Assembly: GCF_009812055.1 (NCBI RefSeq)
Contig: NZ_WQNH01000043.1
Location: 1-45,463, forward strand
DNA length: 45,463 nucleotides
Reading direction: 5' to 3'
Source of the DNA: Chelativorans xinjiangensis
GTDB taxonomy: Bacteria; Pseudomonadota; Alphaproteobacteria; Rhizobiales; Rhizobiaceae
Made by a program: the position numbers and the translations under genes. How positions within the stretch are numbered: the stretch's first letter is position 1; every line of letters starts with the position of its first letter. The notes below the pieces were generated by a model that did no database searches, had not been told where the DNA came from, and was given only the letters and a program-made list of their open reading frames with translations. Below are positions 10,838 through 37,968 of this stretch, one piece after another.

Positions 10838-10862
10838 AACGCCGTTTCTGTGATCGTGTTCC
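10838..10862 (-). promoter_or_regulatory. EcfG-type promoter P1
   Basis: On the minus strand: GGAAC (10862-10858), 16 nt, CGTT (10841-10838), an exact match to the alphaproteobacterial EcfG consensus. It faces the small membrane gene at 10816. Confidence 0.8.
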
Positions 10863-10895
10863 GACGCCTGTGGCGGTGTACGCACGCTCCGGCCG

Positions 10896-10920
10896 GGAAC
10901 AATCTGCCTCCCGACGGGTT
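10896..10920 (+). promoter_or_regulatory. EcfG-type promoter P2
   Basis: GGAAC (10896-10900), 16 nt, GGTT (10917-10920). It faces the CBS gene 140 bp downstream and stands back to back with P1. Confidence 0.72.
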
Positions 10921-11059
10921 CAAGCGGGCAGAGAAATCCTGCCAACCCGGGACCGGAGGAAAGAAGGCAGCCTCCGCATTCACGAAGAGACGGCCGCTAC
11001 CTTTCACGAGCAGGATTGGAGAGCACTGGCATGACCACTGGCAGGAAGGAGAAGGCACT

Positions 11060-11506
11060 ATGAAAATAAGCGAAGCAATGACGCCCAATGTCCGTACCGT
11101 GAGCCCTGACCAATCCATCCTCGAGGCGGCGAAGATCATGGCCGAGATCGATGTCGGCGTCGTGCCGGTCGGTGAAGATGACCGTCTGGTCGGCATGCTG
11201 ACCGACCGCGACCTGGCGGTTCGGGCAGTGGCGCAGGGGCGCGGTTCCGACACGCAGGTCCGCGAGGTGATGACCCGCGATATCAAATACTGCTTCGAAG
11301 ATGAGGATACTGATCACGTCGCGCACAATATGGGCGACCAGCAGATCAGGCGCATTCCGGTCGTGAACCGGGAAAAGCGGCTGGTCGGCATCCTCTCACT
11401 CGGCGACCTGGCGCTTAAGGAAGGGCCGGCGCCTGCCGGTGAGGCGCTTCGGGGCGTAGCGCGTCCGGGCGGTATTCATTGCCAATCGGGCGATGCGCAC
11501 GCCTGA
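11060..11506 (+). CDS. CBS-domain protein
   Basis: 148 aa. Two tandem CBS motifs (about residues 1-60 and 68-130) form one Bateman module and no catalytic domain. Landmarks are MKISEAMTPNVRTVSPD, VGMLTDRDLAVRAVA, VMTRDIKYCFEDED and LVGILSLGDLALKE. Such modules bind adenine nucleotides and report energy state. The ATG has AGGAG at good spacing; the long upstream frame is rejected. The next gene starts 3 bp after the stop, so they form an operon, probably driven by P2. Stand-alone CBS proteins are common members of EcfG regulons in rhizobia. Confidence 0.9.
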   Translation: MKISEAMTPNVRTVSPDQSILEAAKIMAEIDVGVVPVGEDDRLVGMLTDRDLAVRAVAQGRGSDTQVREVMTRDIKYCFEDEDTDHVAHNMGDQQIRRIPVVNREKRLVGILSLGDLALKEGPAPAGEALRGVARPGGIHCQSGDAHA

Positions 11507-11509
11507 GGT

Positions 11510-12433
11510 ATGGCCCGCACCAAGAGGCAAACACGTTCCGCGGTTGTTCTCGGCGGGACTGGATTTCTCGGCCGCCGCATCGTTCGCCATCTGCTTAGAC
11601 ACGGCTTCGAAGTCCGTTCAGGATCTCGCCATCCTGAACGGGCGCGCAGCATCTTCGGGGCGGCGGTCGAGGCTATCCGTGCCGATGTGACGGATGAGCT
11701 CTCGCTCAACGCGGCGCTTGCGCGTTCCGCCAATGTCGTCAATGCCGTCAGCCTATATGTCGAGCACGGCGAGCAAACCTTCGATGCGATCCATGTCAGG
11801 GCCGCCGCGCGCCTCGCGCGGGTGGCGCGTGACGTCGGTATAAGGCAACTGGTTCATATATCGGGAATCGGATCCGATCCGCTTTCCAGATCCGGCTATA
11901 TCAGTGCCCGGGGCAGGGGCGAGGACGCTGTGAGGGAAGCTTTTCCCGGTGCGACGATCGTCCGCCCGGCGGTCATGGTTGGGCAGGATGACGCATTCCT
12001 GACCACCGTCGCCCGCCTCGTTCGGCTGTTGCCGGTCTATCCGTTGTTCGGCAACGGAAAGACGCGGCTGCAGCCGGTCCATGTGGAGGACGTGGCAGAG
12101 GCGGTTGTGCGCGTGTTGGATAACGGGGACAGCGCTCCCTGTTATGAACTGGGCGGGCCGCGCGTCTATCTTTATCGCGATCTCGTCAAAACCATTGCAC
12201 AGCAGTCTTCTGCGCACACCGTCACGGTACCGATGCCTTTCGTTTTGTGGAGCATGATGGCGCGGCTGGCGGAAGAGGTGCCGAGCGTGCCCCTCACGCG
12301 AAACCAGGTCGAGCTTATGCGGCGCGACAATGTCACCGCCGCCGATTTGCCCGGATTTCAGCAACTCGGGATCGAACCTGTGGCGATCGAAGACGTCATT
12401 CGGGAGATGCACGACCGAAAGTCGGAGAGATAG
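11510..12433 (+). CDS. NAD(P)-binding SDR-like protein, complex I NDUFA9 family
   Basis: 307 aa, atypical/extended SDR. N-terminal dinucleotide motif VVLGGTGFLGRRIV, then LVHISGIGSD, where the Tyr-Lys catalytic pair of true epimerases is not evident. It continues with ATIVRPAVMVGQDD and PVHVEDVAEAVVR. This is the pattern of NDUFA9/YbjT-like NAD(P)-binding proteins, some of which associate with complex I; catalysis is uncertain. It is co-transcribed with the CBS gene. Its position is stop +3 bp, with GAGG just before the ATG. Confidence 0.85.
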   Translation: MARTKRQTRSAVVLGGTGFLGRRIVRHLLRHGFEVRSGSRHPERARSIFGAAVEAIRADVTDELSLNAALARSANVVNAVSLYVEHGEQTFDAIHVRAAARLARVARDVGIRQLVHISGIGSDPLSRSGYISARGRGEDAVREAFPGATIVRPAVMVGQDDAFLTTVARLVRLLPVYPLFGNGKTRLQPVHVEDVAEAVVRVLDNGDSAPCYELGGPRVYLYRDLVKTIAQQSSAHTVTVPMPFVLWSMMARLAEEVPSVPLTRNQVELMRRDNVTAADLPGFQQLGIEPVAIEDVIREMHDRKSER

Positions 12434-12503
12434 GCTAGACCCGTCTTTCCGTTGGCTCGCCTATAGCTGCGGCAGCATCATGGTTTCATCTTCAGCGTCT
12501 ACG

Positions 12504-12528
12504 GGAACATCGGCTACCTGCTGCGGTT
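12504..12528 (+). promoter_or_regulatory. EcfG-type promoter P3
   Basis: GGAAC (12504-12508), 16 nt, GGTT (12525-12528), ending 36 bp before the ugd start. It places UDP-glucose dehydrogenase under the same putative sigma factor. Confidence 0.72.
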
Positions 12529-12564: not shown

Positions 12565-13950
12565 ATGCAAATCGCAATGATCGGGGCAGGCTATGTGGGC
12601 CTTACGACGGCAACGTGTTTTGCCGAGATAGGCCACGAGGTCGCCTGTCATGACGCGGATAGTGAACGCATCAGGCAGCTCGAAACGGGCGAACTACCCA
12701 TTTATGAACCCCGTCTCGAAGAGGCCATGCGGCGCGTAGTAGCCTCCGGTAAACTGCGTTTTTCACGTTCTGGCGCTGATTGCGTAAGTGGCGCCGATGT
12801 GGTCTTTCTGGCCGTCGGTACACCCGCCATGCGCGACGGAGGTATAGACCTGTCGCAAGTGGAAGCCGCGGCGCGGCTCGTCAGCCGTTGGCTGAAGCCA
12901 GGCGCGGTGGTCGCTATCAAGTCGACGGTCGTTGCGGGAACATGTCGCCGTGTTCGCGAGATCATGGCGGAGGAGCGCCAGTCGCTCGATTTCAGCGTTG
13001 CGGCAAATCCCGAGTTCCTGCGCGAGGGATCGGCGATCGAGGACTTCCTGTGTCCGGACAGGATCGTCATCGGCTGCGACGACCGCCGGTCCGCTTCGTT
13101 GCTGTCCGAAGTCTATCGACCATTGACGGAACGAGGCGCACCGAAAGTGCTGTCGAGCACTCCAAATGCCGAGCTGATCAAATATGCGGCAAACGCGTTC
13201 CTGGCTCTCAAGATCGGCTTCATCAACGAAGTGGCCGACCTGTGCGCGCAGACAGGTGCGGATGTCGGCCCCGTCGCCGAAGGCATCGGCCTCGACCGGC
13301 GCATCGGCCCGAGCTTTTTGCGGCCGGGGCCGGGCTACGGCGGGTCGTGCTTCCCGAAGGATACGTGCGCCTTCGCTGCCACCGGCCGTGACCGTGGCGC
13401 ACGGCAGTTTCTGATTGAGACGCTGATCGAAAGAAACGAAAAGCGTAAGGCTGCGCTGGCAGGGCGGGTCATCGCGCAAGGCGGGTTGCGGAAAGGCTCC
13501 GTCGTCGCGGTGCTCGGCCTGGCCTTCAAGGCGAACACTGACGACGTCCGCGAGTCCGCCGCTCTAACGATCGCCCCCATCCTTCAAAAGGCAGGGCTTA
13601 GGGTGAGGGCACACGACCCGAAGGCCATGACAAATGCGCGGCAGTGGCTGCGCGACGTCGAATGGGCGGATACCGCCTATGAGGCGGCACACGGTGCGGA
13701 CGCGGTTGTCGTCCTCACGGAATGGGAGGAGTACAAGAACATCGACCTTGGCCGCCTCGCCTGCACGATGTCCCAGCGTGTCGTCTTCGACTATCGGAAC
13801 TTGCTCGATCCACGGGCGGTCGCAGCGCACGGATTGATCTATTTCAGCCTTGGCCGCCCTCCCGTTTCTCCAGCCGGGAAAAGCACGAGAGGGCGCGTGT
13901 CGGCGTTGGCCGGTACACGCCGACGCGTAGCCGCGCCGGCGCGCGACTAG
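12565..13950 (+). CDS. ugd: UDP-glucose 6-dehydrogenase
   Basis: Oxidises UDP-glucose to UDP-glucuronate with 2 NAD+; cytosolic. 461 aa. N-terminal Rossmann GAGYVGLTTA, the family motif AANPEFLREGSA, the central dimerisation helix with AELIKYAANAFLALKI, the active-site GGSCFPKDT with catalytic Cys262, and the C-terminal UDP-binding domain with VLGLAFKANTDDVRESAA. The last 30 residues form a basic, low-complexity tail beyond the usual end. It supplies UDP-GlcA to the UDP-xylose synthase-like enzyme at 22035, and so links to the glycan operon. Confidence 0.95.
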   Translation: MQIAMIGAGYVGLTTATCFAEIGHEVACHDADSERIRQLETGELPIYEPRLEEAMRRVVASGKLRFSRSGADCVSGADVVFLAVGTPAMRDGGIDLSQVEAAARLVSRWLKPGAVVAIKSTVVAGTCRRVREIMAEERQSLDFSVAANPEFLREGSAIEDFLCPDRIVIGCDDRRSASLLSEVYRPLTERGAPKVLSSTPNAELIKYAANAFLALKIGFINEVADLCAQTGADVGPVAEGIGLDRRIGPSFLRPGPGYGGSCFPKDTCAFAATGRDRGARQFLIETLIERNEKRKAALAGRVIAQGGLRKGSVVAVLGLAFKANTDDVRESAALTIAPILQKAGLRVRAHDPKAMTNARQWLRDVEWADTAYEAAHGADAVVVLTEWEEYKNIDLGRLACTMSQRVVFDYRNLLDPRAVAAHGLIYFSLGRPPVSPAGKSTRGRVSALAGTRRRVAAPARD

Positions 13951-14000: not shown

Positions 14001-14264
14001 TCAGCCACGCTCGACCAGTTTATTGAAACGGCTGATACGATCGTCGTCCGTGGGCTCCTGATAGAGGAACGCCAAGTTGTTCTCATCGAATATACGGAAG
14101 AAGTCGGCCCAGGTAATCGGTTCCAGCTCCTCTTCCGGCTCGCCGAAATCGATCCTCAATATTCCGTCCGGCTTGGTCGCCTTCACACGGGCTGGCTGGC
14201 CGCCCCTGGTCTCGGCCCATTTCCTGATCTCGTCGTGGTCGGTTGTGGTTACTGCCGCGCTCAT
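14001..14264 (-). CDS. Conserved small hypothetical protein, 87 aa
   Basis: The ATG at 14264 follows AGGAGAAGG; the much longer frame (to 15485) is antisense to the epimerase gene and rejected. Sequence landmarks are DHDEIRKWAETRGGQPARVK, GILRIDFGEPEEE, TWADFFRIFDENNLAFLYQ and RFNKLVER. Similar short proteins are frequent in alphaproteobacteria and are sometimes labelled '1,4-alpha-glucan branching enzyme' in databases, a label I do not trust. It is acidic and soluble, with an unknown role. It is driven by EcfG-type promoter P4, divergent from the glycan operon. Confidence 0.85.
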   Translation of the reverse strand: MSAAVTTTDHDEIRKWAETRGGQPARVKATKPDGILRIDFGEPEEELEPITWADFFRIFDENNLAFLYQEPTDDDRISRFNKLVERG

Positions 14265-14296: not shown

Positions 14297-14321
14297 AACA
14301 CGCGAGAAGGCCTTCTGTTCC
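14297..14321 (-). promoter_or_regulatory. EcfG-type promoter P4
   Basis: Minus strand: GGAAC (14321-14317), 16 nt, TGTT (14300-14297), 32 bp before the start at 14264. Confidence 0.7.
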
Positions 14322-14335: not shown

Positions 14336-14360
14336 GGAACAAAAGCTTCCTGCTGCTGTT
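14336..14360 (+). promoter_or_regulatory. EcfG-type promoter P5
   Basis: GGAAC (14336-14340), 16 nt, TGTT (14357-14360), 42 bp before the first gene of the glycan operon. It is back to back with P4; the two -35 elements are only 14 bp apart. Confidence 0.7.
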
Positions 14361-14402: not shown

Positions 14403-15512
14403 GTGAAAGATATCGTACTGATCACTGGAGGCGGCGGATTTATCGGCCGCCATGTGGCACGTGAACTGCTGGACGACGGCTTCGAAGTGCGCGTTTTCGA
14501 CAGCCTCGTCGATCAGGTGCACGGTGGCCGGCCCGCCGTCCTGCCCGACGGAGCCGAGTTCATACGCGGCGACATCCGCGATGCCGATGCAGTGCGGCAT
14601 GCCTTGAATGGGGTGGGCCTGGTGGTGCATCTGGCGGCCGAAGTCGGTGTCGGCCAATCCATGTATGAGATCGAGCGCTACGTCGGCGCCAACGACTACG
14701 GCACGGCCGTCCTGCTTCAGGAGATCGCCGCCCAGCCTGTCCGGCGCATCGTCGTTGCCTCGTCGATGAGTGTTTACGGCGAGGGGCTCTACTGGGATGC
14801 GGCCGGCGGTGTCCATGACGATGTGCGAAGGGACCGTTCGCGTATAAAGGCCAGGTTGTGGGACCCGGCCACCCGCGACGGCCAGCCACTCCTGCCCATC
14901 CCCACGAACGAGGATAAGCCGGTCGAGCTTGCATCCATCTATGCGCTGACCAAATTCGCACAGGAGCGTGCCGTTCTCATCTTCGCCGAGGCCTATGGCA
15001 TCGATGCGGTGGCGCTGCGGCTGTTCAACGTCTTCGGGCCGGGCCAGGCACTGTCGAACCCGTATACAGGCGTGCTTGCCAACTTCGCCGCGCGCCTGAT
15101 CAACGGCGAGCCCCCACTCATCTTCGAGGATGGCGCGCAGCGGCGTGATTTCGTGCATGTGCAAGATGTCGCGCGCGCTTTCGCCTTGACCCTGCGCAAG
15201 CCGGAAGCGCGCGGCAACGTCATCAACATAGGCAGCGGTCGCGCCTATACGATCAGCAGCGTCGCGCGGTTGCTGGCCGAAGCGATGGGCATGCCGGATG
15301 TCGAGCCGGAGATTCTCGGCAAGGCACGCGCGGGCGACATCCGCCATTGCTTCGCCGATATCTCCCGTGCGCGTGCCTTGCTCGCCTTCGAGCCTGAGCA
15401 CCTGCTCGAGGATTCTCTGGTGGAACTGGCCGACTGGGTGCGGCTGTCGGGCGCCGTCGACCGGGGTGCGGAAATGAAACGTCACCTCGAAGAAAGAGGG
15501 CTCGTGTCATGA
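14403..15512 (+). CDS. NAD-dependent epimerase (dTDP-L-rhamnose 4-epimerase-like)
   Basis: 369 aa extended SDR. VLITGGGGFIGRHV binds NAD; HLAAEVGVGQSMYEI, VVASSMSVYGEG (Ser) and IYALTKFAQE (Tyr-x3-Lys) form the active site; LRLFNVFGPGQA and RRDFVHVQDVARA are typical of the family. The GVGQSMYEI and SMSVYGEGLY stretches recall dTDP-L-rhamnose/6-deoxy-L-talose 4-epimerases, but related UDP-sugar epimerases share them. The GTG start has AGGAGC upstream. It is first gene of a run with 4-bp overlaps (stop/start ATGA with the next gene), transcribed from P5. The C-terminus overlaps the next start. Confidence 0.85.
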   Translation: MKDIVLITGGGGFIGRHVARELLDDGFEVRVFDSLVDQVHGGRPAVLPDGAEFIRGDIRDADAVRHALNGVGLVVHLAAEVGVGQSMYEIERYVGANDYGTAVLLQEIAAQPVRRIVVASSMSVYGEGLYWDAAGGVHDDVRRDRSRIKARLWDPATRDGQPLLPIPTNEDKPVELASIYALTKFAQERAVLIFAEAYGIDAVALRLFNVFGPGQALSNPYTGVLANFAARLINGEPPLIFEDGAQRRDFVHVQDVARAFALTLRKPEARGNVINIGSGRAYTISSVARLLAEAMGMPDVEPEILGKARAGDIRHCFADISRARALLAFEPEHLLEDSLVELADWVRLSGAVDRGAEMKRHLEERGLVS

Positions 15513-17542
15513 CCGGCGCGAAACGCCCCTCCTACAGCGAGCGCAAATTCGGGTTCGTCGAGTGGTTCCGCCCCGGCGAGTACGAGCGCACGGAAACGGT
15601 GCTTCCCGAAATTATCGCTTCCGGCGCCTCCTATCTTCGCACACACCTGTCCTGGGCGGAGTATTTCGCGCCAGGGGGCCCGGAGTGGTTCGATTGGCTC
15701 CTGCCAAGGCTGGCCGAGAAGTTGGATGTGTTGCCGTGCATCCACTATACCCCACCCTCCATCTCACGTACGGGCAAGACGTCGGGCGCGCCGCGCCGCC
15801 TCCGCGATTATGCCGATTTCGTCGACCACGTGTTGACGCGCTACGGCCACCTCTTCCGTCATATCGAGCTGTGGAACGAACCGAACAACCTTCTCGACTG
15901 GGACTGGCGCGAAGACACCGATTTCCAGCTCTTTTGCGAGATGATCGGTGACGCCGCCCATTGGGCCCAGGAACGCGGCTGGAGTCCGGTTCTCGGAGGG
16001 CCGTCGCCTTTCGATCCATACTGGCTCGACCTGATGGGCGAAAGAGGCGTCCTGGACCGCGTCAGTGCCGTTGGGTTCCATGGTTTTCCAGGTACGTGGG
16101 ACAGCGAGAAAGGAAGCTGGGGCGGCTGGGATCTGCATATCGGCGAGATGCGGCGCATCGTCGACCGCTACAATAAAGCGGCGGAGATATGGATCACCGA
16201 AACCGGCTATTCGACCTGGCGCAACGACGAGGTCGAGCAGGCGCGGCGCTTCATCAGCGCACTCGATGTGCCGGCCGACCGCATGTATTGGTACAGCTGG
16301 CGCGACGTGCCGCACGACGTGGCTGTGCAGGAAGGTCTATGGTTCGACGTCCGCCACTATCATTTGGGTGCTGTCGATAATTCCGGTCGGCCGAAGTTGC
16401 TGGCGCGGCTTCTGACCGATGGCGGTGTTGAGAAGGTGGCGGAGATCGCACGCCTGGCCGCTCCCTCGATCGGCGCCAGAACCGAGCCCGTTCTGATCAC
16501 GGGCGGCAGCGGTTTTATCGGCGCCAATCTTGCGGACAGCCTGCTCGACGACGGCGAGGAGGTGATTGTTCTCGACAATCTGAGCCGTCCCGGTGTCGAT
16601 GAGAATCTCGGCTGGCTGAAGGAGAGGCACGGCGATCGCGTGCATCCGTTCCTTGCCGACGTGCGCGATTATATGACGATCTACCCCGCCGTCGCCGACG
16701 CCGGCTCGATCTTTCACCTAGCAGCTCAGACAGCCGTTACGAGCAGTCTCCTGCAGCCCTTTGACGACTTCGAGGTCAACGGCCGCGGAACGCTGAACGT
16801 GCTGGAGGCGGTCCACCAGTCGGGGCGGCGCATACCGATCGTCTTCGCCAGCACGAACAAGGTCTACGGATCACTCGAACACCTGGAGATGATCGAGCTG
16901 GAAGACCGCTATATGCCGGCCGACCGACAGGTGCATAAATACGGCATCGGCGAGGACTGCCGCCTTCGGTTCTGCACGCCCTACGGCTGCTCCAAGGGGG
17001 TGGCGGATCAATATGTGCTCGACTACGCCACCTCCTATGGCCTGCCGGCGGCGGTCTTGCGTATGAGCTGCGTCTACGGCCCGCGCCAGTTCGGCACGGA
17101 GGACCAGGGCTGGATCGCTCATTTCCTCATCCGCGCGCTGGAGAACAAGCCCATCACCATCTTCGGCGACGGCAAGCAGGTTCGCGATGTACTGCACGTC
17201 AGCGACGCCGTGGCTGCCTATCGGAAGGTGCTGCGCGATATCGCGGAGCTTCGCGGCGAAGCCTTCAACCTCGGTGGCGGCTCAGCCAACGCGGTTAGTT
17301 TGCAGGTCGTCCTGCAGAAGATCGCACACCTGAAGGGCAGCAAGCCGCACGTCAGGCGCGAAGACTGGCGGGCCGGCGACCAGCTCTATTTCGTGGCCGA
17401 CACGCGTTGCCTGAAACGACGTATCGGCTGGAGCCCCAAGGTGCCCTGGAGCGATGGCCTGGAGGATCTCATGGCCTGGTTGCGCGCGGAAAGGGTGTCG
17501 GTGCCCGACGACCGCGCCACGGCAAGAAGGATCGCGCGATGA
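15509..17542 (+). CDS. Bifunctional glycoside hydrolase-like / NAD-dependent epimerase fusion
   Basis: 677 aa. Residues 1-315 form a clan-A (beta/alpha)8 glycosidase-like domain: the putative acid/base Glu124 is in ELWNEPN, and the putative nucleophile Glu231 is in WITETGYST. Trp/Tyr-rich loops (SWAEYF, YWYSWRD) could bind sugar. No signal peptide is present, so this half is cytosolic. Residues 328-650 are an extended SDR: LITGGSGFIGANL, FASTNKVYG, and Tyr492-x3-Lys496 in YGCSKG. The VYGPRQFGTEDQGW and IFGDGKQVRDVLHV stretches are close to CDP-paratose 2-epimerase/UDP-hexose epimerases. The ATG overlaps the previous stop by 4 bp. A hydrolase fused to a sugar-nucleotide epimerase is unusual and may channel or edit a nucleotide-linked intermediate (inference). 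Confidence 0.85.
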   Translation: MTGAKRPSYSERKFGFVEWFRPGEYERTETVLPEIIASGASYLRTHLSWAEYFAPGGPEWFDWLLPRLAEKLDVLPCIHYTPPSISRTGKTSGAPRRLRDYADFVDHVLTRYGHLFRHIELWNEPNNLLDWDWREDTDFQLFCEMIGDAAHWAQERGWSPVLGGPSPFDPYWLDLMGERGVLDRVSAVGFHGFPGTWDSEKGSWGGWDLHIGEMRRIVDRYNKAAEIWITETGYSTWRNDEVEQARRFISALDVPADRMYWYSWRDVPHDVAVQEGLWFDVRHYHLGAVDNSGRPKLLARLLTDGGVEKVAEIARLAAPSIGARTEPVLITGGSGFIGANLADSLLDDGEEVIVLDNLSRPGVDENLGWLKERHGDRVHPFLADVRDYMTIYPAVADAGSIFHLAAQTAVTSSLLQPFDDFEVNGRGTLNVLEAVHQSGRRIPIVFASTNKVYGSLEHLEMIELEDRYMPADRQVHKYGIGEDCRLRFCTPYGCSKGVADQYVLDYATSYGLPAAVLRMSCVYGPRQFGTEDQGWIAHFLIRALENKPITIFGDGKQVRDVLHVSDAVAAYRKVLRDIAELRGEAFNLGGGSANAVSLQVVLQKIAHLKGSKPHVRREDWRAGDQLYFVADTRCLKRRIGWSPKVPWSDGLEDLMAWLRAERVSVPDDRATARRIAR

Positions 17543-18684: not shown

Positions 18685-18686
18685 CC

Positions 18687-28576: not shown

Positions 28577-28915
28577 TTACCGCCTCGTCGCAAGTGCAAG
28601 CAGGAAGCCGAGCCCGCCTGCGAGCACCAGAGAGCTGACCGGGCGCTCGCGGATCATTTGAGACACTCCCTGTCCCAGTTCCTCGGCGCTATTCCTGACG
28701 TTCTCCATCGCCGCTTCGCTCTGCGCACGCAATTGGTCCAACCCGTCACCCGCGGCCTTGCGAGCAGCGGGCCCGGATTGCTCACCCATCGCTTTCAAGT
28801 GATCCATGAGCTGAGCCACGTCGGTACGCAGTTGCTGGATATCGCTTTCGATATCGCGCGTCGATACACCCATCTTTCCCTCCGTTTTGCGGGATTTCCT
28901 GGTCGTGGTTGCCAT
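28577..28915 (-). CDS. DUF883 / YqjD-ElaB-like protein
   Basis: 112 aa. The basic N-terminus is followed by a long coiled-coil helix (TRDIESDIQQLRTDVAQLMD ... DQLRAQSEAAMENVRNSAEE) and a C-terminal glycine-rich tail anchor (SSLVLAGGLGFLLALATRR). YqjD and ElaB in E. coli are tail-anchored, bind ribosomes and are induced in stationary phase by RpoS; alphaproteobacteria lack RpoS and use EcfG, which matches the EcfG-type promoter P8 here. ATG 28915 has AGGAA upstream; the long frame to 29635 is antisense to other genes and rejected. Confidence 0.85.
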   Translation of the reverse strand: MATTTRKSRKTEGKMGVSTRDIESDIQQLRTDVAQLMDHLKAMGEQSGPAARKAAGDGLDQLRAQSEAAMENVRNSAEELGQGVSQMIRERPVSSLVLAGGLGFLLALATRR

Positions 28916-28957: not shown

Positions 28958-28982
28958 AACTCCCAACACACAGCGATGTTCC
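28958..28982 (-). promoter_or_regulatory. EcfG-type promoter P8
   Basis: Minus strand: GGAAC (28982-28978), 16 nt, AGTT (28961-28958), 42 bp before the DUF883 gene. Confidence 0.65.
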
Positions 28983-28997: not shown

Positions 28998-29022
28998 GGA
29001 ACATTCGGCGAGTGATTTGGTT
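28998..29022 (+). promoter_or_regulatory. EcfG-type promoter P9
   Basis: GGAAC (28998-29002), 16 nt, GGTT (29019-29022), 44 bp before the gene at 29067. It is back to back with P8, with 15 bp between the -35 elements. Confidence 0.72.
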
Positions 29023-29483: not shown

Positions 29484-32030
29484 ATGGATAGTAGGCAAGA
29501 CGTAGTCATCGTCACGGGAAGCAGCGGCTTCATCGGTTCCGTACTGATCGAGAAGCTGGCCGACCGCTTCGTGCCGGTCGGCCTCGACCTGTTTGTGCCG
29601 GAGCATCCACCGGCAGGCGCGGAGTACATCCGCATCGACCTGACGTCCGACGAGAGCGTCGACGAAACGCTGGAGCAAGTGCGGAAGCGCTATGGCGACC
29701 GCATCGCCTCGGTGATCCACCTGGCCGCCTATTTCGACCTCACCGGAGAACCGAACCCGAAATATGAAGCGGTGACCGTGCGCGGCACGGAGCGGCTGTT
29801 GCGGGCACTGCAGGATTTCGAGGTCGAGCAATTCGTCTTCTCGAGCACCATGCTCGTCCACGCCCCGGGTAAAGAGGGCCAGCCGATCGATGAGGACTGG
29901 CCGCTCGATCCGGAGCTCCCCTACCGTGCCTCGAAAGTTAAGACGGAAAAGCTGATCCGCGAGCAGCGGGGCCACATTCCGGCCGTGATGGTGCGACCGG
30001 CCGGGGTTTATGACGACATGTGCCGCGCGACTTTTCTGGCGCATCAGATCGCCCGCATCCACGAGCGCCTGCTCATCAGCCATGTCTATCCAGGCGACTT
30101 GGACACCGGGCAGCCCTTCGTCCATCTCGACGATCTCTTGGACGCGCTTCTTGCGATCGTGGAGCGCAGGAAAGAGCTGCCGGCGGAGCTGCCGCTTCTC
30201 ATCGGCGAGACAGACACGCCGACCTTCGGCGAACTGCAGTGCGAGATCGGCCGTCTGATCCATGGCGAAGAGTGGGAGACGCGGCAGATCCCGAAGAGCC
30301 TCGCCCGCACCGGGGCGTGGGTGCAGGGCGAGGTGCTGGATCAGGATCCGTTCATTCGGCCGTGGATGGTCGACATCTCGGACGACCATTACGAGCTAGA
30401 CATCTCGCGCGCCAGAAAACTCCTGGGCTGGGAACCGACGCATTCCCTGCGCGACACCCTGCCGAGGATGATCGACGCGCTGAAGGCCGACCCTGCGCGC
30501 TGGTACAAGACCAACAAGCTCAATCCGGCCTCGGTGGCGGCAGAGCAGGTCGAGACGGAGGAGCGCGAAGAAGGAGAAGAAGAGGCAGGCCCCGAGCATC
30601 AGGGGGCCATGCGCGAGCACATGCAGCACATGCGCATGATGCATTTCGACATGCTCTGGGTGCACTTCCTCAACATGCTGCTCGGCCTCTGGCTGGCGAC
30701 GAGCCCCTTCGTCTTTGGCACCTTCGGTGCCGACACCTTCAATGAAGCGGTCATGCGCGTAACGGAGGAGCGCGGCCTTTGGGATCCCTCGTTGCGCAAT
30801 TCGCTCACCGCCTGGAGCGACCTCTTGAGCGGCATCCTTATCATGGGATTCTCCGCGCTTGCGCTCTCGCCACGCCTGAGCTGGGCGCCATGGGCCAACA
30901 CCGCGGTCGGCATATGGCTTCTGTTCGCGCCGCTCTTCTTCTGGGCGCCGAGTGCAGCCGTCTATGCCAACGACACCTTTGTGGGCGCGCTCGTCATCAC
31001 CTTCTCCATCCTGGTGCCGATGATGCCGGGCATGAGCCACGAGGGCATGATGGACCAGTCCGACATGCCGCCCGGCTGGACATATTGCCCATCCACCTAT
31101 CTGCAGCGCCTCCCCATCATCGCGCTAGGCGCCATCGGCTTCGTCATCGCACGCGCGCTCGCCGCCTATCAGCTTGGGCATATCGATTATGTGTGGGAGC
31201 CGTTCTTTGCGGGAGAGGGCGACCGCAATGGCACAGAGTTCATCATCACGTCCGACGTGTCAAAGGCCTGGCCGATCGCCGACGGCGGTCTGGGCGCGAC
31301 CAGCTACATGTTCGAGATCCTTATGGGGGTGATGGGCGGGCGGTCGCGCTGGCGCACCATGCCTTGGATGGTGCTTCTGTTCGGCATCGTCGTGGTGCCG
31401 CTCGGCGTCGTCTCCATCTATTTCATCATCGTCCAGCCGATCATGATCGGCACCTATTGCACACTATGCCTCGCTGCGGCGCTCGCCATGCTGATCATGA
31501 TCCCCTTCGCGCTCGACGAGTTGGTGGCGATGGGCCAATTCCAGGTCGCCAACACCCGCCGCGGCCGTCCCTTCTGGCGCTCCTTCTTCATGGGCGACGC
31601 CCTGCCGGGGAGCGGCAAGGACACGGATCGGCCCGGCTTCGACGTGCCGATTGGCGAACTTGTCCGTTCGGCCGCGCGCGGCATTACAGTGCCCTGGACG
31701 CTGGTCGCCAGCTCGGTGCTTGGCGCCTGGCTGATGTTCAGCCGACTGGTCTTCGGCACCGAACCGCCGATGGCCGACAGCGATCACCTGGTGGGTGCGC
31801 TGGTCACCACCGTTGCCGTCATGGCCATGGCCGAGGTGGCGCGGCTGCTGCGCTTCATCAACGTCGCCTTCGGCCTCTGGCTGATCGCGGCCCCCTGGCT
31901 CCTGACCGGCGGCGGCACGCTGGCAGCGGCGCACGGCGTCTTCGCCGGCTTGATCCTGATCGCGCTAAGCTTGCCGCGCGGCGCCCGGAGCCAAGAACAT
32001 TATGGCGGCTGGGATCGCTACGTCTTTTAG
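29484..32030 (+). CDS. Epimerase-VKOR-SPW membrane fusion protein
   Basis: 848 aa. Residues 1-345: extended SDR with VTGSSGFIGSVL, VFSSTMLVHAPG, Tyr-x3-Lys in YRASKVKTEK and GVYDDM. A Glu-rich linker and a Met/His-rich stretch (MREHMQHMRMMHFDML) follow. The remainder is membrane-embedded: an SPW-type repeat pair (LWLATSPFVFGTFG, IWLLFAPLFFWAPS), a vitamin K epoxide reductase-like core with Cys659-x2-Cys662 in GTYCTLCL and a lone Cys535, then another SPW-like pair (FGLWLIAAPWLL). VKOR relatives pass electrons between quinone and thiol; the second Cys pair of classical VKOR is not visible. The start could also be GTG 29463. The fusion has been seen in rhizobia but its function is unknown to me. 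Confidence 0.82.
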   Translation: MDSRQDVVIVTGSSGFIGSVLIEKLADRFVPVGLDLFVPEHPPAGAEYIRIDLTSDESVDETLEQVRKRYGDRIASVIHLAAYFDLTGEPNPKYEAVTVRGTERLLRALQDFEVEQFVFSSTMLVHAPGKEGQPIDEDWPLDPELPYRASKVKTEKLIREQRGHIPAVMVRPAGVYDDMCRATFLAHQIARIHERLLISHVYPGDLDTGQPFVHLDDLLDALLAIVERRKELPAELPLLIGETDTPTFGELQCEIGRLIHGEEWETRQIPKSLARTGAWVQGEVLDQDPFIRPWMVDISDDHYELDISRARKLLGWEPTHSLRDTLPRMIDALKADPARWYKTNKLNPASVAAEQVETEEREEGEEEAGPEHQGAMREHMQHMRMMHFDMLWVHFLNMLLGLWLATSPFVFGTFGADTFNEAVMRVTEERGLWDPSLRNSLTAWSDLLSGILIMGFSALALSPRLSWAPWANTAVGIWLLFAPLFFWAPSAAVYANDTFVGALVITFSILVPMMPGMSHEGMMDQSDMPPGWTYCPSTYLQRLPIIALGAIGFVIARALAAYQLGHIDYVWEPFFAGEGDRNGTEFIITSDVSKAWPIADGGLGATSYMFEILMGVMGGRSRWRTMPWMVLLFGIVVVPLGVVSIYFIIVQPIMIGTYCTLCLAAALAMLIMIPFALDELVAMGQFQVANTRRGRPFWRSFFMGDALPGSGKDTDRPGFDVPIGELVRSAARGITVPWTLVASSVLGAWLMFSRLVFGTEPPMADSDHLVGALVTTVAVMAMAEVARLLRFINVAFGLWLIAAPWLLTGGGTLAAAHGVFAGLILIALSLPRGARSQEHYGGWDRYVF

Positions 32031-32424: not shown

Positions 32425-34968
32425 TCATACGGCCACCCTGGGAAAGCCATGCACCAGAATGAGCCCGGCCACGAGCTGGGCGGCCGTGTAGTAATAGAGG
32501 ATGGCGCCGTTCTCGATGCTGACGCGGCGCTCGCGGTTGAGCTTGCCGGTGAGATAGCGTGCGGTGGCAAAGCCGAGCAGGACAACGATGGCAAAGCCGA
32601 GCTGGGCGTTGAGCGCGCTGCCCATGAAAACCATGGCCGAATAGGCGTTCTCTGTCGGCCGCAGCCCGGTGAGCCAGTGGCCGGCGATCTCCAGCGCTAT
32701 CGCCGAGGTCAGACAGATGGCGGCGGCGGCGATCGCCCAGGGCAGCGCGGCATTCCTTCCACCCGGTTCCGGCAGGAGGCGCGTTGCCGCAACCATGCTT
32801 GCGGTCCCGGCGACGGCAAGTGCCGCACTTCCGAGTGGCCAGCTTGGCGCCGGCAGCATCGGCGATCCCACGGGCGCCCAAACCTCCGGCGAGACGACCC
32901 AGAGATAGAGATAGGAAAAGACATAGGCGGTGTAGAGAGACGCTATGACGATGATCAGCACAACCATCGCCCACCAGGAATGGGACCGGGGCCCGGCCAT
33001 GTAGGTGGGAAGGCTGATCCCGCCGCCAATGTCGACCGGTTTCCGTCCCGGGCTGGGGTCGAGGCTCCACGTCCAGGCGAGGCAGGCGGCAATGGCAACG
33101 ACCCCGCAAATGATCGCGGGAACGACCAGCTTGATGGTCAGCAGGAGGAAAAAGCCGGCGGTGAAGACCGCCGCGGTCACGTGCGTCCAACTCGGCCCTG
33201 GCATGCGGAGGATATATTCGGGTTCCGCCTCGATCGGGCTCGTCACGATGGTCTCGCGACCGCCGGTCGGCGCGTTGGGCAGAAAGTGGTGGCCTTCCTC
33301 GACCTGGCGTTCCAGGCCTGGCTGCTCCCAAAGCGGTTCACGGCTGGTGATCAGAGGTATGCTGCGCGTCGAGTAGATGTCGCTGGGCAGCCATTCGAGT
33401 GAACCCGCCTTCCACGGGTTGCCCTCTCCACCTGCAGATGTCGGCCTGAAATTAAGTGCCAGGTCCAGCAGGAAGAGCAGGACGCCGGCGGCGAGCATGT
33501 AGGCACCCGCAGTGGAGATCATATTCAGTGTGTCCCATCCGACGCCCTCGGGGTAGGTCCAGACACGGCGCGGCATGCCGCGCAATCCCGTCAGGTGCAT
33601 GGGGAAGAACGCCACGTTGAAACCGACAAACATAAGCCCGAAGACCCAGCGTCCGAGCTTTTCGGAAAGCTGTTTCCGGCTGGCCATCGGTGCCCAATAG
33701 TAGAAAGTGGCGAACAGAGGGAATACCATGCCGCCGATCAGCACGTAGTGGAAATGGGCGACGACGAAGTAGGTGTCGTGAACCTGGAGGTCGATCGGTA
33801 CCAGCGCCACCATCACGCCGGTAAGCCCGCCGATGGTGAAGATGAACAGAAATCCGAGGACGAACAGGGAAGGCGTGGTGATACGAAAACGCCCTTTGCT
33901 GCCTGCGATTGTGGCGATCCAAGCGAACATCTGTATGCCGGACGGGATGGCGACGGCCATGCTGGCGGCGGAGAAGAAACCGAGGCTGAGAGCGGGGATG
34001 CCGGTGGTGAACATGTGATGTACCCACAGCCCGAAGCTGAAGAAGCCGGTTCCGATCAAGGCGACGACGATCGGCCGGTAACCGACCAGCGGCCGGCCGG
34101 CCATGGTCGGCACGATCATGGAGACAAGGCCGGCCGCCGGCAAAAAAATGATGTAGACCTCGGGATGGCCGAAGAACCAGAAGAGGTGCTGCCACAAGAG
34201 CGGGTCGCCGCCCTTGGCAGCGGTGAAAAAGGGCCAGCCGAAGGAACGTTCGATCTCCAAAAGCATGGTTCCGAAGATCACAGCCGGAAAGGCAAGCATG
34301 ATCATCGCCGCGAAGATGAGCATTGCCCAGGCGAAAATGGGCATCTTCGCCAACGACATGCCGGGCGGTCGCGTGCGCAGGGTCCCAACCACAATCTCGA
34401 TCGCTCCGGCGATTGCCGATATTTCGATGAACCCTATGCCAAGTAGCCAGAAATCGGCATTATCGCCGGGGGAGAACTCCTTGAGCGTGAGCGGCGTGTA
34501 CATGAACCAGCCGCCTCTGGGCGCCAGGCCATAGAACACAGTCGAGAAGAACACGAGACCGCCGATAATATACGCCCAGACGGCAAAGGCGCTGAGTCGG
34601 GGAAAGGGCAGGTCGCGGGCGGCCAGCATCTGCGGCAGAAGCATCACGCCCAGCGCCTCCATGGCCGGTACGGCAAAGAGAAACATCATCGTGGTGCCGT
34701 GAACCGTGAAGATCTGGTTGTAGAGGTCCTGGTTCAGAAACGTGTTTTCCGGCACCGCAAGCTGCGTGCGTATGAGAACGCCCAAAGCGCCTGCCAGCAG
34801 GAAGAAGAGAAGCGCAGCCGCGATGTAAATCAGGCCAATGACCGTATTGTTGACGGCCGTTACGATGCGGAACCCTTTGGGTGTAGCCCAGGCCCGCAAC
34901 AGGTCATCCACCTCGCTTTGCGGTCTCGGTGCCGGGTTGGGTAGACTTTTTTCGTCAGAAGCTGTCAT
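32425..34968 (-). CDS. Cytochrome c oxidase subunit I fused to subunit III
   Basis: 847 aa, integral membrane. Subunit I (about 1-560) has His90 (heme a), the CuB-site His268-Pro-Glu-Val-Tyr272 with the D-channel Glu, CuB His317/His318, and His405/His407 in VVAHFHYV. The HPEVY Glu indicates an A1-type proton-pumping enzyme. Residues about 600-847 form a subunit III domain (SHSWWAMVVLIIVIASLYTA, ILYYYTAAQLVAGL). The start at 34968 is chosen because family similarity begins there; the extension to 35073 belongs to a small upstream frame. I/III fusions are known in caa3-type oxidases. With the cytochrome-c-tailed subunit II it makes a caa3-type terminal oxidase. Confidence 0.95.
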   Translation of the reverse strand: MTASDEKSLPNPAPRPQSEVDDLLRAWATPKGFRIVTAVNNTVIGLIYIAAALLFFLLAGALGVLIRTQLAVPENTFLNQDLYNQIFTVHGTTMMFLFAVPAMEALGVMLLPQMLAARDLPFPRLSAFAVWAYIIGGLVFFSTVFYGLAPRGGWFMYTPLTLKEFSPGDNADFWLLGIGFIEISAIAGAIEIVVGTLRTRPPGMSLAKMPIFAWAMLIFAAMIMLAFPAVIFGTMLLEIERSFGWPFFTAAKGGDPLLWQHLFWFFGHPEVYIIFLPAAGLVSMIVPTMAGRPLVGYRPIVVALIGTGFFSFGLWVHHMFTTGIPALSLGFFSAASMAVAIPSGIQMFAWIATIAGSKGRFRITTPSLFVLGFLFIFTIGGLTGVMVALVPIDLQVHDTYFVVAHFHYVLIGGMVFPLFATFYYWAPMASRKQLSEKLGRWVFGLMFVGFNVAFFPMHLTGLRGMPRRVWTYPEGVGWDTLNMISTAGAYMLAAGVLLFLLDLALNFRPTSAGGEGNPWKAGSLEWLPSDIYSTRSIPLITSREPLWEQPGLERQVEEGHHFLPNAPTGGRETIVTSPIEAEPEYILRMPGPSWTHVTAAVFTAGFFLLLTIKLVVPAIICGVVAIAACLAWTWSLDPSPGRKPVDIGGGISLPTYMAGPRSHSWWAMVVLIIVIASLYTAYVFSYLYLWVVSPEVWAPVGSPMLPAPSWPLGSAALAVAGTASMVAATRLLPEPGGRNAALPWAIAAAAICLTSAIALEIAGHWLTGLRPTENAYSAMVFMGSALNAQLGFAIVVLLGFATARYLTGKLNRERRVSIENGAILYYYTAAQLVAGLILVHGFPRVAV

Positions 34969-35141
34969 GACGACTGCCTCAACGCGTACTGCATCCCGAT
35001 AGCAGCGTGGCCGATGCCGGTAGTGTCTGTGGTGGCGTCGGCATAGTGGGTAAGGCGAGCGCCCGCCACCCACACCGCGACCGCCGCGCTCGCGAAGAGC
35101 AGGAAATTGAGAGGGAGGCTGAGCGCGGTGAAGTCAAACAT
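34965..35141 (-). CDS. Small frame resembling the N-terminus of a cation exchanger, 58 aa
   Basis: ATG at 35141, six bases after the subunit II stop. The translation MFDFTALSLPLNFLLFASAA continues with VAVWVAGARLTHYADATTDT and IGHAAIGMQYALRQSS. The hydrophobic start plus WVAGARLTHYAD closely recalls the first helix of YrbG-like sodium/calcium exchangers; those proteins continue with a second helix that is missing. Its stop overlaps the oxidase ATG (ATGA). It may be a remnant, or a small membrane subunit translated in coupling with the oxidase. Confidence 0.45.
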   Translation of the reverse strand: MFDFTALSLPLNFLLFASAAVAVWVAGARLTHYADATTDTTGIGHAAIGMQYALRQSS

Positions 35142-35146
35142 TCATC

Positions 35147-36139
35147 TTACTTCAGGCTGGAGAGATAGGCGGAGAGAGCCTCCAGTTGTTGCGGCGTGAA
35201 GACGTCGAACTCCGGCATGAGGTTCTCGGGCTTTATGTGCTGGTTTTCCGCGATCCAGCGGGCGAAAGCTTCTTCATCGTTGGGCAACGTGGCCGCCGCC
35301 AGCGATCTTCGACTGCCGACATGGGTGAGATCGGGTGCGATCACGCCCCGCGCCTCGGTTCCGCGCACCGTGTGGCAGGCGCCGCAACCGCTGGTCATGA
35401 ATAGCCGCTCTCCCAGGCGTTCCTGCTCGGTTTGCGGCGTCCGTGCGTCTGCCGCTTCCCTCGACAGCCACGCCCGATAGTCCTTTGGCGGAAGAGCGAC
35501 GACGTAAAACGCCATCAGTGCGTGGGCGCCGCCACAATATTCGGCGCACTGGCCGCGGCTGGTGCCCGGTTCCGTGGCCTCAAGCGTGATGACGTTGGAG
35601 CGGCCGGGAATCATGTCCAACTTGCCGCCCAATTGCGGCGCCCAGAAGCTATGGATCACGTCCGCCGTTTCGAGGCGCACGGAAATGGGTCGACCGACCG
35701 GAAGGCGCAGTTCGTTCGCGCTTGCGACCGTCTCGCCGTTCGGGAGATGGTAGATCACCTCCCACCACCACCTTTTGCCGACGATGGTGATGCTCGGCTC
35801 GCCCGAACGCTGGGTTCTGGCTACGCCGGCCTGCAGCAGCGTGGAGCCCTGCACCAACAGGTAGGTCAGCACAAGAACCGGCAGGACGATGCCACCAAGG
35901 AGCACCGCCCTTTCCCGGCTGAGCAGGTCTTTCCACGTTGGCGGCCCCCACAAGGCGAACATGATGGCGATAATGACAAGGATCGTCACCGCTGCACTGA
36001 CCGCGGTTGCGATCCAGAACAGAGAGCCGATTTCGCTGGCTTCACGGCCCCGCGAGACAAGTGCAGATTGCTCGCCCGTGCAGGCGGAGAGAACCAGCAG
36101 CAAAGCCGCGCCCGAACAGCGTTCCAGCACCCGTTTCAT
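35147..36139 (-). CDS. Cytochrome c oxidase subunit II with C-terminal cytochrome c domain
   Basis: 330 aa. Lipoprotein signal LLVLSAC (Cys20), two membrane helices (about 38-63 and 79-98), then the cupredoxin CuA domain: His163, Cys198, Glu200, Cys202, His206 and Met209 (QCAEYCGGAHALM). A cytochrome c domain follows with CGACH (252-256) and a Met in EFDVFTP-preceding NLMPEF. This subunit accepts electrons and passes them to heme a; the fused heme defines caa3-type oxidases. The ATG overlaps the stop of the upstream cytochrome gene by 4 bp. Confidence 0.95.
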   Translation of the reverse strand: MKRVLERCSGAALLLVLSACTGEQSALVSRGREASEIGSLFWIATAVSAAVTILVIIAIMFALWGPPTWKDLLSRERAVLLGGIVLPVLVLTYLLVQGSTLLQAGVARTQRSGEPSITIVGKRWWWEVIYHLPNGETVASANELRLPVGRPISVRLETADVIHSFWAPQLGGKLDMIPGRSNVITLEATEPGTSRGQCAEYCGGAHALMAFYVVALPPKDYRAWLSREAADARTPQTEQERLGERLFMTSGCGACHTVRGTEARGVIAPDLTHVGSRRSLAAATLPNDEEAFARWIAENQHIKPENLMPEFDVFTPQQLEALSAYLSSLK

Positions 36140-37263
36140 GGAGCACCCGTTGCGTCGGCGGGATGCGAGGCAGTGTCCACCGGCGTTTCGCGCTTAGAGG
36201 CGAAGTAGGCAGCGACCGCGTCGATGTCGGCTTGGCTGAGACGGCGCGCAATGGTGGTCATGATGCGGCCATAGGTGGTGCCCATGCGCCGACCGTCGCG
36301 CATCAGCGCCAGTTGGCGGGCGATATAGTCGCTGGAGAGGCTGTCGAGCCGCGGGAACCGGTCCGATGACCGCTCGGAGTGGCAGGCAAGACACGGAGGA
36401 ATCTGGGCGCGTGCGGCCCCGGCCTTGGCAATTGCGCGGCCGCGTGCGATCTGCTGTTTGTCGCCATTCTCCGGCGGCGCGCGAAGTTTGTCGCTGAAAC
36501 GACGGGCAAGCGCCTGCCGCTCATCCTCATCGAGCGCACGGGCGATGGGCTCCATCATGCCGCTCTGCCTCTGGTTGCGTCCATATTCGACCAGCGCACG
36601 CTCCAGATAGGCGCGTCGCTGTCCGTTCAAAGAGGGGACCAGGCCATCCACCGGTTTCGCGCCGGCGTCTCCGTGACAACCAGCGCAGAAGTCGACGCTG
36701 TTTCTCTCGGGGACGAGGAACCGCAAGGCTGATCCGGCATCGCTGGGCGTTTCCCGCCAGGTCACTGGCCGGCCGTCGTTTGCATTCGTTTCTGAAAGAC
36801 GCGAGAGGAAGGCCACGAGCGCCCACACCTCGTCGTCGCGGCCCACGCCGGACCAGGCTGGCATGCCGGTGAATTTGAGCCCGTTTGCGATGATCCAGTA
36901 TAGCTCCTCGGTGCTCCAGTCTTCCGCGGCATGATGGAGGGCGGGAGGTGGGGGATACATTGCACGCGCGACCGGATTTGGCTCCGCATTCGCCGTGCCG
37001 TGGCAGGGTGCGCATCCGAGTGTGAAGTGCCGGGAGCCAAGCTCGGCCAGCCCCTCGTCCGTAAGATCCGGTGTTTCCACCCCAGCGGCATGTGTCGCGA
37101 CGGATCGGCGTAGTGCCAGCCTTAAAATGGCGTCCGTAACCGCAAAATGGGGTATCGAAGCACTGACGTTGTAGACGCCCGACAAGACGATTCCCGCAGC
37201 CAACGCCAGTCCGCCGGCTACGGCGATTACCAAGCCCGCCACCCAGCTTCTGCGCCACCACAT
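36136..37263 (-). CDS. Membrane-anchored triheme c-type cytochrome
   Basis: 375 aa. N-terminal signal anchor (WVAGLVIAVAGGLALAAGIV) and three heme-binding motifs: CAPCH (84-88), CAGCH (193-197) and CLACH (291-295), each in a class-I cytochrome c-like domain facing the periplasm. Many homologs have two hemes; three is notable. It is placed between ctaG and subunit II, and so probably feeds electrons to the oxidase. It overlaps the subunit II start (ATGA) and starts one base after the ctaG stop. Confidence 0.9.
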   Translation of the reverse strand: MWWRRSWVAGLVIAVAGGLALAAGIVLSGVYNVSASIPHFAVTDAILRLALRRSVATHAAGVETPDLTDEGLAELGSRHFTLGCAPCHGTANAEPNPVARAMYPPPPALHHAAEDWSTEELYWIIANGLKFTGMPAWSGVGRDDEVWALVAFLSRLSETNANDGRPVTWRETPSDAGSALRFLVPERNSVDFCAGCHGDAGAKPVDGLVPSLNGQRRAYLERALVEYGRNQRQSGMMEPIARALDEDERQALARRFSDKLRAPPENGDKQQIARGRAIAKAGAARAQIPPCLACHSERSSDRFPRLDSLSSDYIARQLALMRDGRRMGTTYGRIMTTIARRLSQADIDAVAAYFASKRETPVDTASHPADATGAP

Positions 37264-37264
37264 C

Positions 37265-37864
37265 CTACAGCGGGTCTTGCAGGTGCGGCGCCGCTCGATG
37301 CGTCCAACCAGGGTGCCGATCGATGTAGGAAAGCCAATAAGCGGCGATGACGATTGCGGCGAGAACGTAGGTGAGGGGACAGACTATGAGCATGAGCAAC
37401 CCGGCAAGTTGCTGGTCGGCCAGCTGAAGTGCAGGATCGGCAAATTGGCCGCGTTGCGTGTGCAAGGGCATGGTCGGATAGAGCGGTCGTGGCGCAAAGA
37501 CGATGATGACGCCCAAGAGGCAAAAGATCTTCCCTGTCACCAGCAGTGCGGCCAAGGCACGCCAGCCGGTTCTAATCGCCGCGTCGACGACGCTGGCCCA
37601 GAACCAGAGCGCTGCGAGGAAGAGCGATGTGTGCATCAGCAACATGCCTTCGGCGGAGGCCGTTGCATAAGCCATGGGCACCGGCAGATGCCATCCCCAC
37701 AACAGCGCCAGTTGCACCGCCGTAGCCGCGCCGATCGATGACGATGCCTTACGCCATATGAGCCTGTTTCGTTGAGCGAAGAGCGCAACAACGGGGGCAA
37801 CCATGTTCATCGCGACGATGTGCGCGATCATGTGTTGGGTGATGAGGCCGGTCATCATGAGCAT
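37265..37864 (-). CDS. ctaG: Cytochrome c oxidase assembly protein, caa3 CtaG type
   Basis: 199 aa, about five membrane helices. Landmarks: ITQHMIAHIVAMNMVAPVVA with conserved His, LLWGWHLPVPMAYA, LLMHTSLFLAALWFWASVVD and QQLAGLLMLIVCPLTYVLAA. The caa3_CtaG family is thought to deliver copper to CuB. It is shorter at the N-terminus than typical CtaG (which has two further helices). The promoter P10 ends only 7 bp before the ATG at 37864, so the message may be leaderless or translation may start at Met3, Met4 or Met12. It is first gene of the oxidase operon. Confidence 0.85.
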   Translation of the reverse strand: MLMMTGLITQHMIAHIVAMNMVAPVVALFAQRNRLIWRKASSSIGAATAVQLALLWGWHLPVPMAYATASAEGMLLMHTSLFLAALWFWASVVDAAIRTGWRALAALLVTGKIFCLLGVIIVFAPRPLYPTMPLHTQRGQFADPALQLADQQLAGLLMLIVCPLTYVLAAIVIAAYWLSYIDRHPGWTHRAAPHLQDPL

Positions 37865-37871
37865 TCACCGC

Positions 37872-37896
37872 AACCCACAACCTCGCGGATTGTTCC
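37872..37896 (-). promoter_or_regulatory. EcfG-type promoter P10
   Basis: Minus strand: GGAAC (37896-37892), 16 nt, GGTT (37875-37872). Transcription would start at or within a few bases of the ctaG ATG. Confidence 0.7.
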
Positions 37897-37942
37897 CGCC
37901 ACTCTGGCCATCGCAGGTAGAGGTGAAGCAGATCGGCGACAC

Positions 37943-37968
37943 GGAACTTTTCCGTGCACGTTGCTGTT
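37943..37968 (+). promoter_or_regulatory. EcfG-type promoter P11
   Basis: GGAAC (37943-37947), 17 nt, TGTT (37965-37968), 89 bp before the AI-2E-type gene. The spacer is one base longer than in the other sites. Confidence 0.6.

Follow-up and report, generated by a model that had tools for sequence, protein, structure and literature searches.

Positions 10838 to 37968 of the DNA analysed here (the window: 45,463 nt, contig NZ_WQNH01000043.1 of Chelativorans xinjiangensis, GCF_009812055.1) hold a second EcfG-type sigma factor gene, here named ecfG2, surrounded by promoter-like sites of the EcfG class. Two ORFs (open reading frames) for NepR-like proteins and genes for glycan synthesis, a terminal oxidase and membrane proteins lie in the same stretch. 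On balance we lean towards reading it as a local stress module, in which the core sigma factor EcfG1 would activate ecfG2 from a CATT promoter, EcfG2 would transcribe the surrounding island, and the NepR-like proteins would act as brakes. Ten perfect matches to GGAAC-N16/17-NGTT were found in the window, together with an eleventh site that has CATT as its -10 box, each exactly where a preliminary description of the sequence had placed it. The sites and the regulatory genes are the following.

10838-10862, minus strand: island promoter-like site, facing a small ORF with a hydrophobic stretch (ATG 10816)
10896-10920, plus strand: island promoter-like site, facing a CBS-domain gene (11060-11506; Pfam)
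12504-12528, plus strand: island promoter-like site, facing a UDP-sugar (uridine diphosphate sugar) dehydrogenase gene (12565-13950; Pfam)
14297-14321, minus strand: island promoter-like site, facing the gene of an 87-amino-acid protein (14001-14264)
14336-14360, plus strand: island promoter-like site, facing a series of NDP-sugar (nucleoside diphosphate sugar) and glycosyltransferase genes (14403-23802)
26782-26806, minus strand: island promoter-like site, facing three overlapping ORFs (ADH, GFO and NepR-like 2)
26886-26910, plus strand: putative input promoter of the sigma gene, core-type GGAAC-N16-CATT, kept in C. salis
28958-28982, minus strand: island promoter-like site, facing the gene of a protein weakly like DUF883 (28577-28915)
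28998-29022, plus strand: island promoter-like site, facing small ORFs and the gene of an epimerase-VKOR-SPW protein (29484-32030)
37872-37896, minus strand: island promoter-like site, facing a CtaG-like gene and an oxidase series down to 32425 (Pfam)
37943-37968, plus strand: island promoter-like site with a 17-nt spacer, facing the gene of an AI-2E-family transporter (38058-39110)
26977-27561, plus strand: EcfG-family (ECF15) sigma paralog EcfG2 (ATG 26977, after AGGAGG)
27656-27838, minus strand: NepR-like small protein 1, 60 amino acids, convergent with the sigma gene, the stop codons 94 bp apart
24292-24711, minus strand: NepR-like 2, with a NepR-like C-terminus (GTG 24711 or a later start; profile A1)

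Nine of the ten perfect matches fall in five divergent intergenic regions of 919 bp in total, and the tenth (12504) lies upstream of a co-directional gene, outside any divergent region. The claim that all five divergent regions carry back-to-back promoters thus holds for nine of the ten sides, and the remaining side needs the CATT site. In a whole-window scan no match was listed in the LysR and MarR divergent regions, as had been reported. Two more relaxed (xATT) matches outside the stretch, at 6466(+), within a called ORF, and at 9611(+), are taken as chance, and an Rfam scan of the window found nothing.

In order to judge the clustering, matches were counted against several controls. One hundred dinucleotide shuffles of the window gave a mean of 1.39 matches (maximum 5) against the ten observed, and the reversed pattern gave two. 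The nine matches in the divergent regions, whose extent rests on gene starts chosen by us, compare with 0.034 expected at the genome rate and 0.072 at the rate seen in the non-coding DNA of a 400-kb stretch of this genome that served as control, in line with the earlier estimate of far fewer than one match in intergenic DNA. The 102,612 non-coding bp of that control held 8 forward and 6 reversed matches, and all of its DNA 15 and 21, respectively; the coding/non-coding split is approximate, as it relies on a rough codon-position script that takes the longest ORFs as genes. This script put six of the ten window sites inside over-extended ORFs; they are intergenic with the gene starts used here. 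Scanning the whole genome, as the preliminary description had suggested, revealed no genome-wide excess of the plain pattern (208 matches versus 239 for the reversed control) or of a CRTT pattern (123 versus 136), whereas match density was approximately 220 per Mb in the window and 35 per Mb outside it.

The same arrangement was found around related sigma genes. Eighty paralog loci were collected with the window sigma as query, being the best 80 of at least 571 candidates; many come from one genus and the counts are not independent. In the 1.56 Mb around these paralogs GGAAC-N17-GTT occurred 425 times and GGAAC-N18-GTT 178 times, compared with 26-59 times for each of the other spacings from 10 to 25 and with 83 reversed matches in all at the two right spacings. 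Divergent site pairs within 120 bp numbered 95, in 39 of the 80 loci (one for the reversed pattern; related loci counted separately), and at least five sites were present in 59 loci, so that the clustering, spacing and pairing of the back-to-back layout first described in the window recur. The closest view is offered by Chelativorans salis (L008), which has counterparts of five of the eleven sites (26782, 26886, 28958, 28998 and 37943). The 25-mer of the 26782 site is letter-identical there, and the spacer is switched in the counterparts of 28998 (N17, N16 here) and 37943 (N16, 17 nt here). Five other window sites are beyond the coverage of L008 or within an oxidase block missing from it.

EcfG2 has the Pfam sigma region 2 (r2), region 4 (r4) and PhyR_sigma2 domains, is of ECF type and closest to EcfG, and its nearest solved chain is 5uxx (E 2.7e-34), which we take to be Bartonella RpoE with NepR; positions 26986-27561 served as query in most sigma searches. 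The core EcfG (EcfG1) is encoded on contig C42 and is 50% identical to EcfG2. Adjacent to it lies the only NepR of the genome above the Pfam cut-off, and the ORF beside this nepR-ecfG pair is read, from its translation, as a putative PhyR. As the only Pfam NepR is on C42 and the window gave no PhyR-like match, no canonical nepR or phyR is linked to ecfG2, which is therefore a non-canonical paralog of a kind known in other species. A FastTree phylogeny of 31 NepR-linked EcfGs and 81 paralogs placed each set in its own clade (support 0.94 and 0.96); the paralogs were the window sigma and the 80 loci, gathered by similarity to the window sigma and covering part of the EcfG paralogs. The sigma gene in the middle of the stretch is thus of the EcfG family, as had been proposed, but it is a paralog, with the core locus elsewhere.

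A promoter-like site was found within 400 nt upstream of the sigma gene in 78 of the 80 paralog loci (82 sites, of which 56 were CATT and 18 CGTT; two in the reversed control), with CATT in 56 and C[AG]TT in 74 of the 80. CATT was enriched at core loci (14 versus 0.7 expected), whereas in islands, leaving out the sigma gene's own promoter, it was not above background (14 versus 16.1 expected). Among 20 paralog genomes that were fetched, 16 had a site before the sigma gene (10 CATT, 6 CGTT). The putative promoter at 26886 is thus a conserved one of a different class and not a mere one-mismatch variant, as it had first been listed. Three loci, two from Chelativorans and one from a Phyllobacteriaceae metagenome-assembled genome (L018, L025 and L029), retain the sigma gene's own CATT site and lack island GTT sites.

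The -10 box of the textbook EcfG promoter, CGTT, is found at one of the ten perfect window sites, and nine of the ten have A directly after GGAAC. When the window was compared with GGAAC-N16/17-CGTT, the ten sites matched in -35 and spacing by construction, CGTT was present at one, and the sigma gene itself had CATT; the sites are of the EcfG class, as proposed, but not of its textbook CGTT type. For comparison with other loci, sites were made unique by sequence before Fisher tests, island sites being filtered for gene proximity and core-locus sites unfiltered, and the 30 best-scoring places among 151 genomes were taken as core loci. C preceded GTT in 55 of 76 unique core-locus sites and in 39 of 185 island sites (L008-L069 and L085). 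A followed GGAAC in 249 of 406 cases at the right spacings in 63 island loci, compared with 108 of 476 at wrong spacings, and in 15 of 76 at core loci. Within 20 genomes, C preceded GTT in 31 of 41 core sites and 34 of 122 island sites, and the difference had the same direction in all 19 informative genomes, with only one to three core sites per genome. These 20 were hand-picked from 33 other paralog genomes, several probably being the same records as the 80 loci, and 122 GTT sites were counted in the island stretches of the 20, against 34 in a reversed control that counted GTT and ATT forms. The putative island promoters thus differ in a systematic way from those at core loci. Matches to GGAACA-N15/16-NGTT number 59 in this genome (44 for the reversed pattern), nine of them in the window; the 50 outside it are no clear excess over 44. 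Candidate sigma residues behind the difference were rejected: residue 154, in region 4, differs from the core form in most paralogs and yet does not track the dialect (loci with a core-like S at this position are equally A-rich, 33/52 versus 263/544), and residues 63 and 69 are invariant across the two kinds of island.

These data bear on whether the island could be a plain part of the core regulon, read throughout by EcfG1 with or without the paralog, with the dialect as a means of tuning promoter strength. We consider this possible, if doubtful. The paralog gene would be one more EcfG1 target. S. meliloti RpoE5 has a single target (PMC6180224), and two S. granuli EcfGs seem to share targets (PMC8103513); CATT and TGTT promoters occur naturally in S. 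granuli and are weaker in vitro than CGTT (PMC7083833), the core motif of S. melonis is given as GGAAC-N17-20-GTT (PMC6599016), and the Rhizobium/Neorhizobium-type islands are nearer to the core type. However, the consistent direction of the core-island difference in all 19 genomes (one to three core sites each), the enrichment of CATT at core loci and not in islands, and the lack of a dialect excess outside the window in this genome all speak against this reading. In R. etli, moreover, either EcfG shows a preference for its own promoter, and of 19 units with lowered expression in an ecfG2 mutant a single one fits the EcfG1 motif (PMC3892343).

The CATT site might instead be an attenuated autoregulatory promoter read by EcfG2, its weak -10 damping positive feedback, which we regard as unlikely. 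In E. coli an R. etli ecfG2 fusion responded to EcfG2 overexpression, with no direct induction by EcfG1 (PMC3892343), and in S. granuli the replacement of CGTT by CATT or TGTT reduced transcription (PMC7083833). However, CATT is enriched at core loci and not at island promoters; S. meliloti rpoE5, which has a CATT promoter, was raised by RpoE2 overexpression (PMC6180224).

The case for NepR-like proteins was built on the family of NepR-like 1. No sequence in the window, 27656-27838 included, reached the gathering score of Pfam PF18557. At E 1e-4 relatives of NepR-like 1 were found in 45 of the 80 loci, and at E 0.01, without composition correction, in 50; 35 of these 50 are no more than 1 kb away from the sigma gene, and 30 stand just downstream of it in convergent orientation. 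When a profile of 31 core NepRs was run over 14,056 ORFs (all of at least 40 amino acids in the 80 loci, the window and L001), this small family filled 49 of the 52 ranks from 2 to 53, four of them under another start codon, rank 1 being a core NepR from the training set; hhalign of the family against NepR gave a probability of 91.9. In the opposite direction, the family profile reached canonical NepRs among its weakest matches in 151 genomes (E 4e-5 in G081, and 1.4e-3 to 7.7e-3 in others such as G013 and G019), a range that includes one or more probable chance matches (G020). Homology to the NepR core thus holds for the family as a whole. A clear NepR-like gene is present in 22 genomes (E 2e-4 or better, G081 left out as its match is the canonical NepR; a stop lies inside the match in G003 and G045), 21 of which have a paralog sigma, compared with 34 of 151 overall, paralog genomes being defined by a score gap and including our own. 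The family profile matched in 34 of 151 genomes of the taxonomic family at E 0.01, canonical NepRs included, and in two of 289 genomes across the class at E 0.001, one being the window's own. In one genome (G073) the strongest NepR-like match (E 1.7e-25) accompanies a sole EcfG match at E 1e-30 with a core-like score, and its NepR-like gene is possibly an orphan.

NepR-like 2 is the last of the three overlapping ORFs behind the 26782(-) site and would therefore be a feedback element. Its match to profile A1 (24295-24420) has E 2.6e-4 in the whole genome, and with the core NepR profile it scores weakly (rank 64, E 20). It is rather improbable, in our view, that these small proteins, in place of acting on EcfG2 as anti-sigma factors, are NepR-like decoys for PhyR, a role proposed for M. 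extorquens paralogs and possible for S. melonis NepR2. In M. extorquens two NepR paralogs do bind PhyR, and an interaction with a sigma factor was not found (PMC4814048); S. melonis NepR2 also binds PhyR (PMC6599016). However, the family follows the paralog sigma gene, with 35 of 50 copies within 1 kb of it, and a PhyR-like protein (at least 200 amino acids matched to the PhyR of the same genome) was found in only one of the 80 loci and nowhere in the window. Chance or base composition as the source of the site clustering, for which only the unremarkable whole-genome counts speak, is already contradicted by the confinement of the enrichment to two spacings around the 80 paralogs and to the divergent DNA of the window and by the counterparts in C. 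salis, and can be set aside with near certainty.

In the proposed stress module, stress would act through the PhyR-NepR switch on contig C42 to free EcfG1, which would read the core-type CATT promoter before ecfG2. Activation by the core sigma is in print for one relative of ecfG2, S. meliloti rpoE5 (PMC6180224). EcfG2 would then transcribe the surrounding genes from the back-to-back sites as active promoters of the dialect GGAACA-N15/16-NGTT, so that the synthesis of surface glycans, an alternative oxidase and proteins of the envelope would be turned on, and NepR-like 1 and 2 would bind EcfG2, restrain it and provide negative feedback. The preliminary description is partly supported in this, in its sites, sigma gene and cargo; which of the two sigmas reads the island, and its character as a general-stress island, are what we infer.

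Several observations weigh against the proposed module. No tested sigma residue explains the dialect, and Rhizobium/Neorhizobium-type islands (L070-L087 without L085) use C before GTT oftener (50 of 111) although their sigmas share the clade-fixed residues. At four of the 20 fetched paralog loci nothing promoter-like precedes the sigma gene, L018, L025 and L029 have no GTT site at all among the 80 loci, and island GTT sites are likewise lacking in G090, a genome of the same genus. NepR-like 1 is without any Pfam match and has a weak score in the core NepR profile search (rank 53, E 6.2), so that its assignment to NepR depends on the family; no EcfG-type site was found in the stretch upstream of it (27838), and only six of its 50 relatives have a promoter-like site in the upstream stretch scanned. 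Finally, RpoE5 overexpression raised one gene only in S. meliloti (PMC6180224). The single target speaks against a large paralog regulon, or it reflects restraint by the anti-sigma factors, which according to the authors were retained in the wild-type host (PMC6180224); the paralog might have little or no activity there.

Several known systems resemble parts of the arrangement. At the S. meliloti rpoE5 locus on pSymB the promoter was located by transcript mapping, the gene is strongly up on RpoE2 overexpression, and an unannotated ORF downstream resembles RsiA1/RsiA2 (PMC6180224). In the S. meliloti sequence we located this promoter as GGAAC-N16-CATT and found a convergent NepR-like ORF whose match to profile A1 (E 1.2e-14, with one stop inside it) is separated by 48 bp from that of rpoE5 and is the sole profile match in pSymB. 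The locus thus shares with the window an ECF15 paralog, a CATT promoter, a convergent NepR-like ORF and EcfG-type sites around the gene, but these sites are often GGAACC and not GGAACA, and RpoE5 has one target. R. etli EcfG2/PF00052 is likewise a non-canonical paralog away from phyR-nepR that prefers its own promoter; in contrast to the window, the available text gives it an unresolved motif and no recognised anti-sigma gene nearby (PMC3892343, PMC3188799). The core EcfG-NepR-PhyR switch has the same sigma family and promoter class, whereas the window has no PhyR-like match and its NepR-like proteins are divergent. S. melonis NepR2 is also a small divergent NepR-like protein beside ecfG and a negative regulator, but it binds PhyR (PMC6599016). 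In Caulobacter, SigT drives the paralog SigU, which controls a gene subset, but neither a local island nor a dialect is described in the available text (PMC8103513). Literature on EcfG-promoter genomic islands or on Mesorhizobium ecfG2 was not found among open-licence papers, a weak absence.

A 2021 review notes that the promoter pattern of R. etli EcfG2 still awaits determination and sees no general agreement on what EcfG paralogs specifically do (PMC8103513). Clusters like that of the window around related sigmas in other bacteria suggest a module of local reach that is coupled to the general stress response, and we tentatively propose that EcfG2 islands may be self-contained output modules of the stress response, with their own dialect, dedicated NepR-like anti-sigmas, an almost wholly local regulon, one conserved CATT input and exchangeable cargo. 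This offers a concrete prediction (a motif, a mostly local target set, an input promoter and a candidate anti-sigma) that is testable in rhizobia.

The cargo comprises two gene series, assigned by Pfam, which agree with the glycan and oxidase parts of the earlier island description; other small proteins and the membrane proteins complete it.

14403-23802, plus strand: glycan cargo, with NDP-sugar epimerases/dehydratases, four glycosyltransferases and a methyltransferase
32425-37864, minus strand: terminal oxidase cargo, with COX1, COX2-cytochrome c, a cytochrome c protein and CtaG

Relatives of three window glycosyltransferases were found by tblastn near 29 of the 80 paralog sigma genes (they resemble one another, and cross-matches are possible), those of COX1 near 13 and of COX2 near 16, and those of the 87-amino-acid protein in eight loci. 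The recurrence of the glycosyltransferases and COX1 fits a putative cargo that is recurring but exchangeable. The oxidase genes carrying the 37872 site had no match in the 20.6 kb of C. salis L008 at E 1e-4, and there the genes of the SPW protein and of the AI-2E-family transporter adjoin each other, so the block looks like a modular insertion or loss. The protein encoded at 28577-28915 matches DUF883 below the cut-off. The 677-amino-acid ORF at 15509-17542 combines an unassigned N-terminal half with a C-terminal NDP-sugar dehydratase-type domain and has tblastn relatives near 30 of the 80 paralog sigmas. At 29484-32030 an NDP-sugar epimerase, VKOR and SPW repeats are fused in one protein of 848 amino acids, a relative of which in L045 matches over 853 positions with 51% identity.

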